Shown here one piece after another: positions 1 through 49,534 of a stretch of 64,000 nt of DNA. Within the stretch, counting starts at the first letter, position 1. The number at the start of each line of letters is the position of its first letter. Location of the stretch: the NCBI GenBank assembly GCA_017849585.1, contig JAFIGT010000022.1:1-64000 (forward strand), read 5' to 3'. The stretch is from Verrucomicrobium sp. (GTDB lineage: Bacteria > Verrucomicrobiota > Verrucomicrobiia > Methylacidiphilales > UBA1321). The position numbers and the translations under genes are program-made. The notes under the pieces were generated by a model, which was given only the letters and a program-made list of their open reading frames with translations, did not search any database and was not told the origin of the DNA.

Positions 1-1
1 G

Positions 2-48
2 AAGCTCTTGGCTCCTGTCGCCCTACGGGCTCCATCCGCCAAGAGCTT
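2..48. repeat. Perfect 11-bp inverted repeat with inner stem
   Basis: Arms at 2-12 and 38-48 are exact reverse complements, and an inner GCCC/GGGC pair (20-23, 27-30) extends the hairpin. It resembles a dispersed palindromic (REP-type) unit. The other copies needed to prove a repeat family were not seen in the window. No T-run follows, so a terminator role is not supported. Confidence 0.4.
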
Positions 49-149
49 GATCCCATCCCATCATCTGTTACCCTTACCATCAACTAACTAACCAACCCCA
101 TTCCTCTCACTCGTTTTGGACCATATTGGGGGACTCAATCATATCCTAG

Positions 150-758
150 TTAAATTGGAGAATCTTGAAAATAGTTAGAATATTTAAGTCCAATTTCGGT
201 TGGCAAGAATTTCGGAGATTCGCCTATTTCATCAATTAGGGATGGATAAATAGCCTTTACTAAGCCAGTACTAGCTAGGGACTCTAGAACATAAGAATGT
301 TTTTTATCTGCATGATTTATCGCTGATGGAAATAGAAGTAAGTCTTCCAAAAATGCGCTATCGACTGCAAAAAGTAGCCGCTTTAAATCTGTTAGGTTCA
401 GGTCACCTTTAACGTAATGGTAAAATAGCTTGCCTATAATTTTAGCTTTCTCATTAGAATCTGCGCGTTCGATAGAAAAAACAACAAGCTCGCCAGTTCT
501 TTTTTGAAGCTTTGGGTCATTCTTTAGTTCTTTTGAAAATTTTGCTGCGTCTTCTGGAGGGACTTTATTAGCTTCGTTTAAGAATGCTTGAATTTTCGAG
601 AGAAATAAGCGCTCCCTAATCCCAAGTGTAATTTTGGCTAATTTGACAATTTCGCCAAGAACTGGAATTCCAGTGATAATTTCTCCCTTCAAGATATGCT
701 CAATTGCCGCATCTCCCCATTCTGCGGCCAAATCAATAGCTTCACCTATGATTTTCAT
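150..758 (-). CDS. Hypothetical protein, accessory region
   Basis: This is an unrecognised protein of about 202 residues, counted from the internal ATG at 758; a TTG at 776 is the alternative start. It has a hydrophobic or amphipathic N-terminal third (residues about 20-50), then a charged helical middle and a C-terminal part resembling a small winged-helix-like segment, but no motif I can name. There is no signal peptide. The gene is clearly more AT-rich than the genes after 1.7 kb, which fits acquired DNA. It stands alone, with no co-directional neighbour within 500 bases. That it is coding is likely from its length and amino-acid composition; the function is unknown. Confidence 0.6.
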   Translation of the reverse strand: MKIIGEAIDLAAEWGDAAIEHILKGEIITGIPVLGEIVKLAKITLGIRERLFLSKIQAFLNEANKVPPEDAAKFSKELKNDPKLQKRTGELVVFSIERADSNEKAKIIGKLFYHYVKGDLNLTDLKRLLFAVDSAFLEDLLLFPSAINHADKKHSYVLESLASTGLVKAIYPSLIDEIGESPKFLPTEIGLKYSNYFQDSPI

Positions 759-1210
759 AGGTAGAATCTTTAGCAAAATAGGCCGCTCACAACAGGAAAA
801 TAGCTAGATTCTTACTTTCCTGTGCCACGGTTAGTAAATTTTATTCCATTCCCGCTCAATTATATCCAAGAATCATATCTAAAGAATGGTTTCCACGGAT
901 TTTTGCCCGGAATTATAAATCAGCCCCGTCCTGTCACTTTTGACGGAAAAGGGCTTTCCGCGTTTTCATAAAACGGGGGTACCTCTCAAAAAATAGAAAT
1001 TGTGCTGATTCCCTCAAGTAAGTTTATATATAAACTAATCCATTTAAGGAATGACTGGGATATGACTTGATAATGGGTTGAATGGGGTATTGGTAATCCT
1101 TCGGATTACATCCTCACCCCATTGATTACATTACTGGGAGTGTTCTAATTTAATCCAAAATTCAATGAATCCCTTTGGCCTCTTCTTTCTCTTCGTGACT
1201 AGAAGAAAAA
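759..1210. other. AT-rich intergenic stretch without recognised gene
   Basis: No convincing ORF is present. The stretch is AT-rich and contains a long bulged hairpin near its right end (1081-1123). No promoter, CRISPR unit or insertion-sequence end was recognised. Confidence 0.4.
1081..1123. other. Two-tier hairpin
   Basis: The outer arms AATGGGG (1081-1087) and CCCCATT (1117-1123) are reverse complements. They enclose a second perfect 7-bp stem, GTAATCC/GGATTAC (1093-1099, 1103-1109), with a 3-base loop. No T-run follows on either strand, so this may be a structured RNA or an element end rather than a terminator. Confidence 0.4.
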
Positions 1211-1321
1211 TGTCCCAAAGAGGGATTTGAACCCTCACGCCACAGCGACCATTCTGCCTGCACCGTCTTTGCTGGCGATTTTATAAAAAAATCGTGGGCG
1301 TTCCACGCAAGATTTGGGACA
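1211..1321 (-). other. tRNA-like element (canonical T-arm and acceptor, odd interior)
   Basis: On the minus strand the ends pair perfectly over 9 bases (1211-1219 with 1313-1321). Next to the 3' arm is a textbook T-arm: stem GAGGG/CCCTC around loop TTCAAAT. The interior is not a normal cloverleaf. It has a short GTGG/CCAC hairpin and an AT-rich CGATTTT/AAAATCG hairpin, whose 7-base loop would centre on TTA, and then about 40 unassigned bases. There is no CCA. At 111 bases it is longer than ordinary tRNAs. It could be a decayed tRNA, a remodelled attachment site or a tRNA-mimicking RNA. Confidence 0.35.
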
Positions 1322-1370: not shown

Positions 1371-1673
1371 TTACTCTCCCCCAATTAAGGCAAGAATTGC
1401 GGTTTGTATGTGTTTTGGTAGATTTGGCCAAGCTTTGACAATCCGCGACAGGTCAGGACTATCAGCGTACAGAATTGGTGTCGATTTTAGTGTCACCTGC
1501 TGTTTTTCAGGGTTTAAAGGCGTTGAAGTAACAATAACTTGCGGAGTTACGCCGCCAGATTCAAATCCTGCCCCCGCAATTTTTCCTCTGTAAGACCCAG
1601 AACGTCCATTAGCCGAGTTGACAGGCGACGCTTGTTTTTGATCTGCTGCGATTATCACCAAGTGAGGTGGCAT
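1371..1673 (-). pseudogene. Integrase-tail-like remnant
   Basis: The 100-residue frame contains AGAGFES and ends in SRIVKAWPNLPKHIQTAIL. From memory of the families, this pair is common at the C-termini of tyrosine recombinases from planctomycetes and verrucomicrobia, where the integrase end reads through a tRNA-derived attachment site. The opposite strand at about 1555-1585 reads like a tRNA 3' end (TTCAAATCC followed by CCCGCA). No catalytic R-H-R-Y part is present, so only a tail survives. It could instead be a spurious frame over an attachment site. Confidence 0.35.
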
Positions 1674-1718
1674 CGATCACAGTCTGGTCGATGTCACCTC
1701 ATAAAACACCGGGGACCT

Positions 1719-6497: not shown

Positions 6498-7919
6498 ATG
6501 AAAACCACGATCAATCCCGAGAAGTCTCACCTTCATCAGAACCGGGTCGAAATGGCAATCCCGGTGAAGCCCGCCCTCAATGGCGCTTACGTCGCCGACT
6601 ACTGCGAGAATCCCACCGCCGAAGGTAATGAAGGTTTGGTTCCCCTGATTCCACCCCAACCGCATGACACCAATGCCGCCCGCCACGCCATCCCCTTGCG
6701 CGCGCCGTCCGCTACCGCTACCGCGAGCAGCAAACGTTTTCCCGTCGTGTTGGTCTCAGTGATCGCTTTGTTGGCCATTGGTGCGGGCGCTTATTACTTC
6801 CTCGGGCAAAAACATGAAACGACGGCAGCCGCCTCCGCGACACCGCCTCCCGTGCAGGCCACTGTGCAAACCGTCGCGCCACAGCAAATTCGCATCTGGA
6901 ATGAATTTTCCGGCCGGCTGCAAGCGGTCGACTATGCCCAGATCCGGCCCGAAGTCAGTGGCCGCATCACTGAAGTCCGTTTTGAAGACGGGCAGACCGT
7001 CAATGCGGGCGATATCCTCTTCGTGATTGATCCCCGCCCCTACGAGGATGCCGTGGCGAAGGCGAAAGCCCGCGTGGCGTCCGCGAAGGCGTCCATCGAG
7101 TTCACGAAAGCGGAGCAAAAGCGCGCGGAGATTCTGATTCGCGCCAATGCCATCGCGCAGCGTGACTTCGATCAGTCCGCCAGCTCAGATCGCGTCGCCG
7201 TCTCGAACCTCGACGAAGCTGAAGCGGCGCTCAAGCAGGCCAGCCTCGATCTGGAACATGCCTACGTCAAAGCCCCAATCTCCGGTCGCGCCAGCCGCGC
7301 GGAAATCACAGTGGGCAACGTCGTGCAGAGCGGTCCCAGTGCTCCGGTGCTGACCTCCATCGCTTCGCGCGACGGCATCTATGCCGACTTCGAAGTCGAC
7401 GAGCAAACCTATCTGGAGACTATCCGCAACGCCGCCTCGGGCAATGCGCAGGAGCGCCTCATCCCGGTGCAGCTCATCCTCGCGGGTGACAAGGATCATG
7501 TCTACGACGGCACGATCTGGAGCTTCGACAACCGTATCGATGTCGCCTCCGGGACGATCCGCGCCCGCGCCAAATTCGCCAACACCGACGGCGCGCTGCT
7601 GCCCGGCATGTTCGTCACCGTCAAGCTCGCCAGCAGCCGTGAACGCTCCGCTGTGCTCATCCCGGAACGCGCCATTGGCTCGGACCAGAGCAAGAAGTTC
7701 GTCTACGTAATCGACTCCGGCAACAAGGCGACATACCGTGAAATTCAGCTCGGTAAATCGATCCGCGAACAACGCGTCATCGAATCCGGCCTGCTCGCCG
7801 GAGACCGTGTGATCACCGATGGCGTGCAACACGTGCGCCCCGGCTCCCTCGTGCAGCCGACGGAAATCAAGCCGGCGGTCGTTCCGGTAAAAATCACCTC
7901 TGTGGAAAGTGCCCGCTAA
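6498..7919 (+). CDS. RND periplasmic adaptor (membrane fusion protein)
   Basis: The 473-residue adaptor has one membrane anchor (residues about 81-102). It also has a split biotinyl-lipoyl hairpin (QIRPEVSGRITEV and YVKAPISGRASRAE), a coiled-coil segment between the halves and a C-terminal beta-barrel. It links the inner membrane pump to the outer membrane duct. The roughly 80-residue N-terminal cytosolic extension rich in Pro and Ala is unusual for AcrA-type adaptors; it may be real or reflect a too-early start, and no Shine-Dalgarno decides this. Its TAA overlaps the next ATG (TAATG), so the two are translationally coupled. Confidence 0.92.
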   Translation: MKTTINPEKSHLHQNRVEMAIPVKPALNGAYVADYCENPTAEGNEGLVPLIPPQPHDTNAARHAIPLRAPSATATASSKRFPVVLVSVIALLAIGAGAYYFLGQKHETTAAASATPPPVQATVQTVAPQQIRIWNEFSGRLQAVDYAQIRPEVSGRITEVRFEDGQTVNAGDILFVIDPRPYEDAVAKAKARVASAKASIEFTKAEQKRAEILIRANAIAQRDFDQSASSDRVAVSNLDEAEAALKQASLDLEHAYVKAPISGRASRAEITVGNVVQSGPSAPVLTSIASRDGIYADFEVDEQTYLETIRNAASGNAQERLIPVQLILAGDKDHVYDGTIWSFDNRIDVASGTIRARAKFANTDGALLPGMFVTVKLASSRERSAVLIPERAIGSDQSKKFVYVIDSGNKATYREIQLGKSIREQRVIESGLLAGDRVITDGVQHVRPGSLVQPTEIKPAVVPVKITSVESAR

Positions 7920-10900
7920 TGAACCTCTCGCGATTTTTCATCGACCGGCCCATCTTTGCCGGGGTGATCTCCTTCGTCATCTTCCTGGCGGGGCTGATCT
8001 CGCTCTTCCAGTTACCGATCTCGGAGTACCCCGAAGTGGTGCCAGCCTCGGTGGTGGTTACCGCGCAATTCCCCGGCGCGACGCCGAAGACGATTGCCGA
8101 AACCGTCGCCACGCCGCTCGAGGAACAAATCAACGGCGTGGAAAACATGCTCTACATGTTTTCGCAAGCTTCGACCGACGGTAACCTCACGCTGACGATC
8201 ACGTTCAAGCTCGGCACCGATCCGAATCTGGCGCAGCAGCTCGTGCAGAATCGCGTGAATCAGGCCCTGCCGCGATTGCCGGAAGTCACCCAGCGCATCG
8301 GCGTCACGACAGTGAAAAGCTCGCCCGACCTCACGATGGTCGTGCATCTCACCTCGCCCAATCAGCGCTACGACATGCTCTATCTCCGCAATTACGCGGT
8401 GCTGAACGTGAAGGATCAGCTGGCGAAAATTGAGGGCATCGGTCGCGTGAATCTCTTCGGTTCCGGCGATTACGCCATGCGCATCTGGCTCAATCCCCAG
8501 CGCGTGTCCGAACGGGGATTGACCGCGCAGGAAGTCATCTCCGCGATCCGGCGGCAAAATGTTCAGGCTTCCACCGGCGTGATCGGCGGTCCGCCCTACG
8601 ATCGCGGTGTGGAAATCCAACTTCCAGTCAATGCCCAAGGCCGCTTGCAGGACCCGGACCAGTTCGGCGAGATTATCATCAAGCGCAGCGCCGACGGTGT
8701 GGTCACTCGTCTGAAAGATGTGGCACGGATCGAAATTGGCGCGGCCGAATTCGGTCTCCGCTCCCTACTCGACAATAAGAACGCCGTGGCGATTCCCATC
8801 TTCCAACTCCCCGGCTCGAATGCGATCAAGATTTCCGACGACGTCCGCAAAACGATGGCAGAACTGAAAAAGAATTTTCCCGAAGGCGTCGATTACACCA
8901 TTGCCTACGATCCCACCATCTTCGTGCGTGGTTCGATTGAAGCGGTCGTCCACACGTTGTTCGAAGCGCTCATTCTCGTCGTCATCGTCGTGATTGTGTT
9001 TCTGCAAACATGGCGCGCCTCCATCATTCCGTTGCTCGCTGTGCCGGTCTCCATTGTCGGTACGTTCGCCATCATGCATGCCACGGGCGGCTCCATCAAT
9101 GCCCTCTCGCTCTTCGGCCTCGTGCTCGCCATCGGCATTGTCGTGGACGACGCCATTGTTGTCGTTGAAAATGTAGAGCGCAACATGGAGGACGGGCTCG
9201 CCCCGCGCGAAGCCACGATCAAGGCCATGAGCGAGGTCACCAGCCCGATCATCGCCATTACTCTCGTCCTCTGCGCCGTGTTCGTGCCGATCGCCTTCAT
9301 TAGCGGATTGAGCGGCCAGTTCTACCGCCAGTTTGCCCTGACCATCGCGTTCTCCACGATTATCTCCGCGTTCAATTCATTGACCTTGAGTCCCGCGCTG
9401 GCGGCGGTTCTGCTGCGCTCGCCTCATGCCCCGAAGGATGCGCTCACGCGCGGCATTGAATGGATCTTCGGTCCGTTCTTCCGCGTATTCAATCGCTTCT
9501 TCCATCGTAGCTCCGAAGGATACGGCACCAGCGTCAAAAGTCTCATCGGCCACAAATCGATTTCGATGGCGCTCTATCTCTTGCTCATCGGCGCAACGGT
9601 CTACATGTTCAATCTCGTCCCGCCGGGCTTTGTTCCGCTCCAGGACAAGCAATACCTCGTCAGCTTTGCGCAACTTCCCGACGGAGCCACGCTCGACCGC
9701 ACCGAGAACGTCATCCGACAAATGACCGATATCGCCCTTAAAGATCCCGGCGTGGAAAGCGCCATCGCATTCCCCGGCCTTTCGATCAACGGATTCATCA
9801 ACAGTGCCAGCGCAGGCATCGTCTTCGTTTCGCTCAAACCCTTCGAGCATCGTACAACGCCCGAACTCTCCGGCTTTGCCATCACTCACCGGCTGCAACA
9901 ACAGTACAGCGGGATCAAGGACGCCTTCATCGCCATCTTCCCGCCGCCACCCGTGCAAGGACTCGGCACAATTGGCGGCTTTAAGCTCCAGGTTGAAGAC
10001 CGGACCGGCGCGGGCTACGAGGCGTTGAATTCCGCCATGAAGGATGTGGTGGCAAAAGCTTCCAAGACACCTGAACTGGCCGGTATTTTCTCCAGTTTCA
10101 AAGTCAACGTGCCGCAACTCTACATTGATCTCGACCGCACCAAGGTGATGCAACTCGGCGTCGACGTGCAGGACGTCTTCGACACGTTGCAAATCTACCT
10201 CGGTTCGCTTTATATCAATGACTTCAATAAATTCGGCCGCACGTACCGGGTGATCGCGCAAGCGGACAAGGAATTCCGCTCCCGCCCTGACGACATCCTG
10301 AAACTCCGCACCCGCAATGCGGAAGGTCAAATGGTTCCGCTTGGCTCCGTCATTCGCATCTCCGATGCGACCGGCCCCGAGAGTGCGCAACGTTACAACG
10401 CGTTCCTCTCCGCCGATCTCAACGGCGGGGCCGCGCCGGGATACTCCAGTGGTCAGGCACAAGCCGCCATCACGCGCATTCTGCGTGAGACCTTGCCGAA
10501 GGGCATGGATTTCGAGTGGACCGAGTTGACCTACCAAAAGGAAATCGCGGGCAACACCGCCATCCTCGTCTTCCCGATCTGCGTGCTGCTTGTTTACCTC
10601 GTGCTGGCCGCGAAATACGAAAGCCTCTTCATGCCGCTCTCGGTCGTGTTGATCGTGCCCTTGTGTTTGCTCTCCGCCATTGGTGGCGTCTGGCTCACGC
10701 AAGGCGACAACAATATCTTTACGCAAATTGGCTTCTTCGTGCTGGCTGCGCTGGCGTGCAAGAACTCCATCCTGATCGTGGAGTTCGCGCGCGAACTGGA
10801 ACATCATGGTCGCACCACGGTGGCGGCAGCCATTGAAGCCTCACGGCTCCGGTTGCGCCCAATCCTGATGACCTCCTTTGCGTTCATCATGGGTGTGATT

Positions 10901-49457: not shown

Positions 49458-49534
49458 GGAGCCATAGCTCAATTGGTTAGAGCGCTGCCCTGTCACGGCA
49501 GAGGTTGCGGGTTCGAGCCCCGTTGGCTCCGCCA
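49458..49534 (+). tRNA. tRNA-Asp (GTC), CCA encoded
   Basis: It forms a complete cloverleaf. Acceptor GGAGCCA/TGGCTCC, D-arm with GGTTAG, anticodon stem CTGCC/GGCAG around loop CTGTCAC (anticodon GTC), T-arm with GGTTCGAGCC, then discriminator G and encoded CCA. It borders the accessory island to its right, and tRNA 3' ends are common integration targets. Confidence 0.95.

Follow-up and report, generated by a model that had tools for sequence, protein, structure and literature searches.

A candidate non-decoding tRNA-like RNA just inside one end of an apparent genomic island in Verrucomicrobium sp.

Introduction

The closest described counterpart of the RNA considered here is tRNA-Other of Bacillus cereus, an island-flanking pseudo-tRNA for which a role outside translation has been proposed; it has a Trp anticodon, is charged poorly in vitro and has mapped transcripts (PMC3399842, accessible part). 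Allo-tRNAs, as described in the accessible part of PMC7609411, have a 12-bp branch arranged as 8/4 or 9/3, and tRNA 3′ fragments are found at attR sites (PMC9897764, accessible part). Nothing closer than these three sources emerged from the accessible part of the literature on YrlA or on integrative elements with tRNA-like sequences.

The RNA reported here lies at 1211-1321 in a 64,000-nt stretch of DNA from Verrucomicrobium sp. (contig JAFIGT010000022.1, assembly GCA_017849585.1; hereafter the window). In comparison with tRNA-Other (accessible part of PMC3399842), it has abnormal D and anticodon regions, and it is known here from sequence alone. With allo-tRNAs and irregular allo-tRNA-like sequences, as far as these are covered in the accessible part of PMC7609411, it shares a long acceptor, a long variable arm and an odd anticodon, as well as extra bases between the acceptor and D stem and the suggested links to transposable elements; its branch, however, is 8/5 or 9/5 rather than the 12-bp 8/4 or 9/3 that defines allo-tRNAs. 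Like tRNA 3′ fragments at attR sites, it places a tRNA 3′ end at an island border; unlike those fragments, in the accessible part of PMC9897764, it has a 5′ acceptor partner, and the likely att copy is a separate sequence at 1551-1584. Our tentative reading is of a non-decoding class II tRNA-like RNA with a leucine-like 3′ end, placed inside an integrated genomic island and close to one of its ends.

Results

Position, stems and predicted fold

A first-pass annotation, which named no strand, had described a 9-bp closing stem and a standard T-arm around D and anticodon regions that do not fold normally. The RNA reads on the minus strand, with the following parts from 5′ to 3′.

1211-1321, minus strand: whole tRNA-like RNA, 111 nt with the ninth acceptor pair, 109 nt in the 8-bp version (1212-1320); all stems are paired in the predicted minimum
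1313-1321, minus strand: 5′ strand of the acceptor-like stem, TGTCCCAAA, a perfect complement of 1211-1219
1293-1307, minus strand: hairpin in the D-arm position, CGTGG-AACGC-CCACG, 5 bp, loop without GG
1278-1292, minus strand: hairpin in the anticodon position, 5 bp, all A-U
1238-1277, minus strand: long stem-loop at the variable-arm position, CGCCA ... TGGCG with inner pairs, 40 nt
1220-1236, minus strand: T-arm, GAGGG-TTCAAAT-CCCTC, 5 of 5 pairs, standard loop
1211-1219, minus strand: 3′ strand of the acceptor-like stem, TTTGGGACA; CCA is not encoded and TTTTTC comes next

The closing stem, in which 1321-1313 and 1219-1211 form nine of nine Watson-Crick pairs, and the standard T-arm were both confirmed, giving an acceptor branch of 8/5 or 9/5, that is 13 or 14 bp. 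The abnormality of the D and anticodon regions was borne out as well. In the predicted minimum the D loop reads AACGC, without the conserved GG that pairs with the T loop in canonical tRNAs; a D stem of 3 bp, GCG/CGC, is the alternative and would leave UGGAA exposed. A T run follows the hairpin at 1307-1293, which is thus also terminator-like. Read with a 7-nt loop, TTTTATA, the hairpin in the anticodon position has TTA at 34-36 and U at 37. The exposed TTA of the first-pass annotation belongs to the 7-nt reading, whereas the predicted minimum gives this hairpin a 5-nt loop. The U at 37, the all-A-U stem and the lack of GG in the D loop of the predicted minimum speak against decoding; the pairing with UAA that had been proposed is unlikely, and finds little support given the U at 37, the all-A-U stem and the lack of an encoded CCA.

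The isolated 111-mer is predicted to fold as a five-armed cloverleaf of -40.4 kcal/mol, with z -3.06 and none of 200 shuffles as stable. The 109-mer with the 8-bp acceptor gave z -2.83 (1 of 200 shuffles as stable), and a 122-nt sequence with 5 and 6 flanking bases added gave z -2.83 (5 of 200). No sigma-70-type promoter was found in 800-1750. An 18-nt inverted repeat (78%, 27-nt spacer) lies at window 1071-1133, about 80 bp past the 3′ end of the RNA.

How often such pairing arises by chance was estimated in two ways. Both strands of the window and of 60 simulated 64-kb windows (first-order Markov) were scanned for TTCRA set in a 5-bp T-stem and closed by an 8-bp acceptor that allowed one G-T at most; one match was obtained in the 60 simulated windows against two in the real one, namely the tRNA-like RNA and an ordinary tRNA-Asp at 49458. 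In addition, the 3′ part was held fixed and paired with a random upstream 95-nt stretch in 300,000 trials. An 8-bp acceptor partner appeared in 0.21% of trials, a 9-bp partner in 0.056% (5.6e-4 per trial), and an 8-bp acceptor partner together with a 5-bp variable-stem partner in 0.007% (7e-5). The acceptor and variable-stem partners stand in tRNA order. Given these low rates, the 5′ acceptor strand is very probably the true partner of the 3′ strand.

Standard tRNA models and the tRNA set of the genome

Neither test of a canonical tRNA, a call by ARAGORN or an RF00005 score above the cut-off, recovered the RNA: ARAGORN and Rfam at gathering scores each returned only the tRNA-Asp from the window. 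In a relaxed Rfam search the best model for the whole RNA was tRNA-Sec (RF01852), whose 21.9 bits (E 0.066) fall short of the cut-off of 47. In the covariance search, a check suggested in the first-pass annotation, the RNA stayed below both the tRNA and the tRNA-Sec cut-offs. It resembles tRNA-Sec in combining an 8-bp acceptor and 5-bp T-stem with a long variable arm, and differs from it in score (tRNA-Sec being taken as more than 47 bits for RF01852 with a UCA anticodon), in having UUA and in its D-arm. The Ro-binding motif is the mark of YrlA and Y RNAs; this motif was not seen on reading the RNA, and no such Rfam family matched it up to E 10.

The genome, which is 96% complete, has 43 tRNA matches above the cut-off and one tmRNA. 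No tRNA-Sec was found in it above the cut-off by a search that weak matches can escape, since it also omitted the tRNA-like RNA of the window. As called by ARAGORN, 24 of the 43 tRNAs likewise end without CCA, so the missing CCA is weak evidence. The genome also contains a second tRNA-Cys(GCA)-like gene (L078 1052-1127, minus strand), which scores 28.5 bits against the tRNA cut-off of 29.

Isotype likeness of the two ends

The two ends were compared with 188 distinct tRNAs, a set rich in Leu (58). The 3′ 36 nt scored 22 against Leu and 16.5 against the next isotypes (Glu, Ser), with shuffled queries reaching at most 15 against Leu; the 5′ 28 nt scored 10 (shuffles, median 9 and maximum 15), with no isotype above shuffles. 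Against the 43 tRNAs of its own genome, the 3′ end scored 16.5 each for Ser and Glu and 15 for Leu. The T-stem is common to two of the own tRNA-Ser, the loop differing by one base, and the exact T-arm was found in none of the 43 extracted tRNAs (a set that does not include the tRNA at C2:145428). Leu was also best, at 19, among 40 tRNAs of three phage arrays, which had themselves been fetched with a leucine-type pattern. Judged by these isotype scores and by the comparison with the extracted own tRNAs, C2:145428 left out, the 3′ half belongs with class II, is leucine-like and did not derive directly from any of them. Its tRNA-derived origin is supported by these scores and the random-partner test, and to that extent the derivation proposed in the first-pass annotation stands; in the 5′ part no tRNA sequence is recognisable. 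The RNA shares its variable-arm end, T-arm and class II layout with tRNA-Leu genes and differs from them in the D-arm, the anticodon arm and its length, 111 nt where theirs is about 85.

Searches for homologues

A single-sequence model (R1), in which the one sequence was entered twice, had matches in 41 of 384 class genomes at E ≤0.1 and in 56 of 387 phylum genomes at E ≤0.01, own genome included in both counts. The own copy scored 142 bits and the next best, a tRNA-Leu, 36.2 bits; besides the own copy, 42 of the 44 loci fetched from both searches were tRNA-Leu genes by ARAGORN. No homologue was recognised in these two draws, which overlap and whose weak matches were inspected in part. In a DNA search of 98 relatives, own genome included, only the own copy and a 22-nt T-arm match within a tRNA-Leu gene of one relative (G090) were obtained. 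No second copy was found in the own genome at E up to 0.001; a candidate copy on C16 is the tmRNA gene. There was no match in phages and plasmids, the T-arm pattern was absent from viral contigs, and a pattern of acceptor and T-arm with a long gap was absent from genome and viral contigs collection-wide.

A looser leucine-type pattern retrieved 28 genome and 6 viral stretches, in 32 of which ARAGORN found an ordinary tRNA-Leu at the match; one exception, L189, is a tRNA-Leu-like 3′ fragment as judged by eye, and the other, L174, is described below. A candidate homologue of 30.7 bits and 111 nt (L135) was rejected as coding DNA inside a 397-aa ORF (L156). Another locus (L151) scored 25 bits with R1 and had no tRNA by ARAGORN. 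Among five further long weak R1 matches of 19-24 bits (L221-L225), ARAGORN found a tRNA only in L222, and L221 lies within a 267-aa ORF. In the absence of a homologue there is no covariation and no sign of selection for the RNA. A lack of conservation, named in the first-pass annotation among the refuting outcomes, speaks against a widespread RNA and leaves a single island-borne one unaffected.

Two other irregular tRNA-like sequences came to light. That at L222 1276-1183 (minus strand) lies among phage head genes, directly after a tRNA-Gly gene; a gene for a minor head protein precedes it, and a small ORF and then the gene of a neck-type protein follow. CCA is encoded, the acceptor is 8 bp long and the hairpin in the anticodon position closes a 4-nt loop with 7 bp; the predicted fold has z -2.27, with 6 of 200 shuffles as stable. 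The sequence at L174 7873-7979 (plus strand), from a Prevotella genome, reaches 29.4 bits under the tRNA model, for which the cut-off is 29, and carries a long hairpin in the anticodon-arm position; its predicted fold is no more stable than shuffles (z -0.20 for 7878-7979, z -0.96 for 7871-7981). Both share a leucine-like T-arm with the window RNA, and homology beyond the T-arm is not supported by the sequences.

Island setting

The surroundings of the RNA include the following features.

1551-1584, plus strand: second copy of the 3′ end of a tRNA-Met gene, probably the att scar left by the island; by alignment, 91% over C17:11386-11418, E 2.5e-5
1371-1673, minus strand: chimeric ORF of 100 aa that runs antisense to the tRNA-Met 3′ copy in its middle and ends in a short tail, relatives of which occur in some other genomes
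150-776, minus strand: 208-aa ORF on the island side; relatives were found in 5 plasmid records and, in a search of 387 genomes, in 4 besides the own one

The same genome has the intact tRNA-Met gene on contig 17 (L062; L124 2341-2418). Its 3′ copy, apparently the scar of an integrated island, lies about 230 bp from the tRNA-like RNA, which is on the island side of it. The first-pass annotation had offered an att site, beside a dead tRNA and a tRNA mimic, as one identity for the RNA itself. The att site was not upheld: a 3′ copy of an own tRNA gene is what marks an att site here, and it is found at 1551-1584 rather than at 1211-1321, which has no second copy in the genome and whose exact T-arm is in none of the 43 own tRNAs extracted. 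A 17-nt inverted repeat, 88% complementary with a 5-nt spacer, lies just outside the tRNA-Met copy, at window 1663-1701.

The tail of the chimeric ORF is putatively that of an integrase gene. Of 286 class genomes, 16 (own included) hold a match to the ORF at E ≤0.01. These matches fall at 20 places, four of which sit in frames of more than 800 aa and are not such tails; a W..LP motif was readable by script in 8 of the 15 other short-frame places. At four places (L098, L099, L102, L109), the tail match coincides with or adjoins a match, in a relaxed Rfam search, to the 3′ end of a tRNA or tmRNA. One of these (L098) matches tmRNA at E 3e-8, and the others (L099, L102, L109) are weak matches (E 0.5-0.9) to a plastid family, the matched part being read as an antisense T-arm. 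The ORF and its tail form the pattern that an element whose integrase gene runs through the att core would leave, the integrase identity being putative. No integrase was found on the stretches seen, and the tail had no match in plasmids or phages. The PCC-domain gene beside the att copy had a match in one of four genomes tried, with no tRNA nearby; an empty site was thus not found among the four.

Hypothetical proteins encoded on 5 plasmids (Rhizobium, Aminobacter, Agrobacterium, Anabaena, Synechococcus) share 30-36% identity with the 208-aa protein, for which no Pfam, PHROG or PADLOC match was obtained. On contig 17, the intact tRNA-Met is followed by two ORFs and then by a Mrr-type nuclease, a SIR2-domain protein and a type I specificity subunit, suggesting that this side of the tRNA-Met att pair is a defence-type island. 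The type I specificity gene runs into an IS, of which contig 17 has the left end; the present contig opens with the right end (window 1-141), and both IS ends occur in L201 343-1641, 1299 bp. The genome has the right end at 6 places, among them several contig ends, and the two IS flanks, AAC and TAT, show no matching target duplication (contigs 17 and 3). The join of contig 17 to this contig through the IS is likely; the non-matching flanks and the 6 places keep it short of proof. With the same caution about the join, the tRNA-like RNA stands at an island border.

Discussion

By sequence and predicted fold, the RNA has a tRNA-like form unfit for decoding, and it looks like an island-borne pseudo-tRNA, a kind already known. 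In the reading that we tentatively favour, it would have arrived with the island and be copied within a longer island transcript, as no sigma-70-type promoter was seen for it in 800-1750. Its tRNA shape may leave the acceptor and T-arm recognisable to tRNA-handling enzymes, for example RNase P or the CCA-adding enzyme, and its role, if any, could lie in structure or processing and outside translation, the kind of role suggested for tRNA-Other of Bacillus cereus. The fact that every stem is paired in the predicted fold favours a maintained structure over decay, with the reservation that a single sequence cannot show selection. Counted against this reading are the failure to recognise a homologue in the searches made, the better scores of Ser and Glu than of Leu when the 3′ end is set against the genome's own tRNAs alone, the T-stem shared with two own tRNA-Ser, the 5′ 28 nt that match no isotype above shuffles, the absence of a sigma-70-type promoter in the region searched and the unproved contig link.

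A substantial share of the probability, though well under half, goes to a dead tRNA, that is a class II gene from the island or an older phage whose D and anticodon region has decayed and which is without function. A 3′ half that is still recognisable beside a 5′ part that is not, the missing CCA, the failure of ordinary models and the lack of a recognised homologue in the 98 relatives (own included) and the 384 class and 387 phylum genomes are all as decay would have it; decay should, however, leave mispairs, and all stems of the predicted minimum are paired, in a fold of greater stability than its shuffles. It is rather unlikely that only the 3′ part is tRNA-derived, as an att relic of another element that used a tRNA gene, with the rest made up of the terminator of the upstream gene and chance pairing. 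Island ends do often carry tRNA 3′ fragments (PMC9897764, accessible part), the 5′ 28 nt resemble no tRNA, and the hairpin in the D position with its T run scores as a terminator, one of 3 in the region against 0.9 expected from shuffles (sd 1.1). Such a relic would nonetheless have to acquire by chance a 9-bp acceptor partner, or an 8-bp acceptor and a variable stem together, at the low per-trial rates given above, and the same T-arm is missing from the 43 extracted own tRNAs.

An irregular tRNA active in translation, of the allo-tRNA or suppressor type and reading UAA, is very improbable. The 8-bp acceptor, 5-bp T-stem and long variable arm, with tRNA-Sec as the best Rfam model, would suit it, as would the UUA of the 7-nt loop reading, and ochre-reading 9/3 allo-tRNAs have been reported (PMC7609411, accessible part). 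Against it stand a score of less than half the cut-off, an acceptor branch of 13 or 14 bp rather than 12, the D loop of the predicted minimum without GG, the U at 37, the all-A-U anticodon stem, the lack of an encoded CCA and a genome, 96% complete, with no tRNA-Sec above the cut-off. A broader idea, which we consider improbable, is that mobile elements carry a class of RNAs that keep the leucine-type charging half, acceptor and T-arm, with the decoding loop lost, and that act as tRNA decoys or structural mimics; the window RNA and the irregular sequences at L222 1276-1183 and L174 7873-7979 would then be its members.

If the RNA is a maintained one, its 9/5 branch, its D loop without GG and its long variable arm would make it an extreme shape among island-borne pseudo-tRNAs, and it would offer a test case for how much of a tRNA the charging or processing enzymes require. 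If it is instead a relic, it would show how annotation near att sites can be misled.
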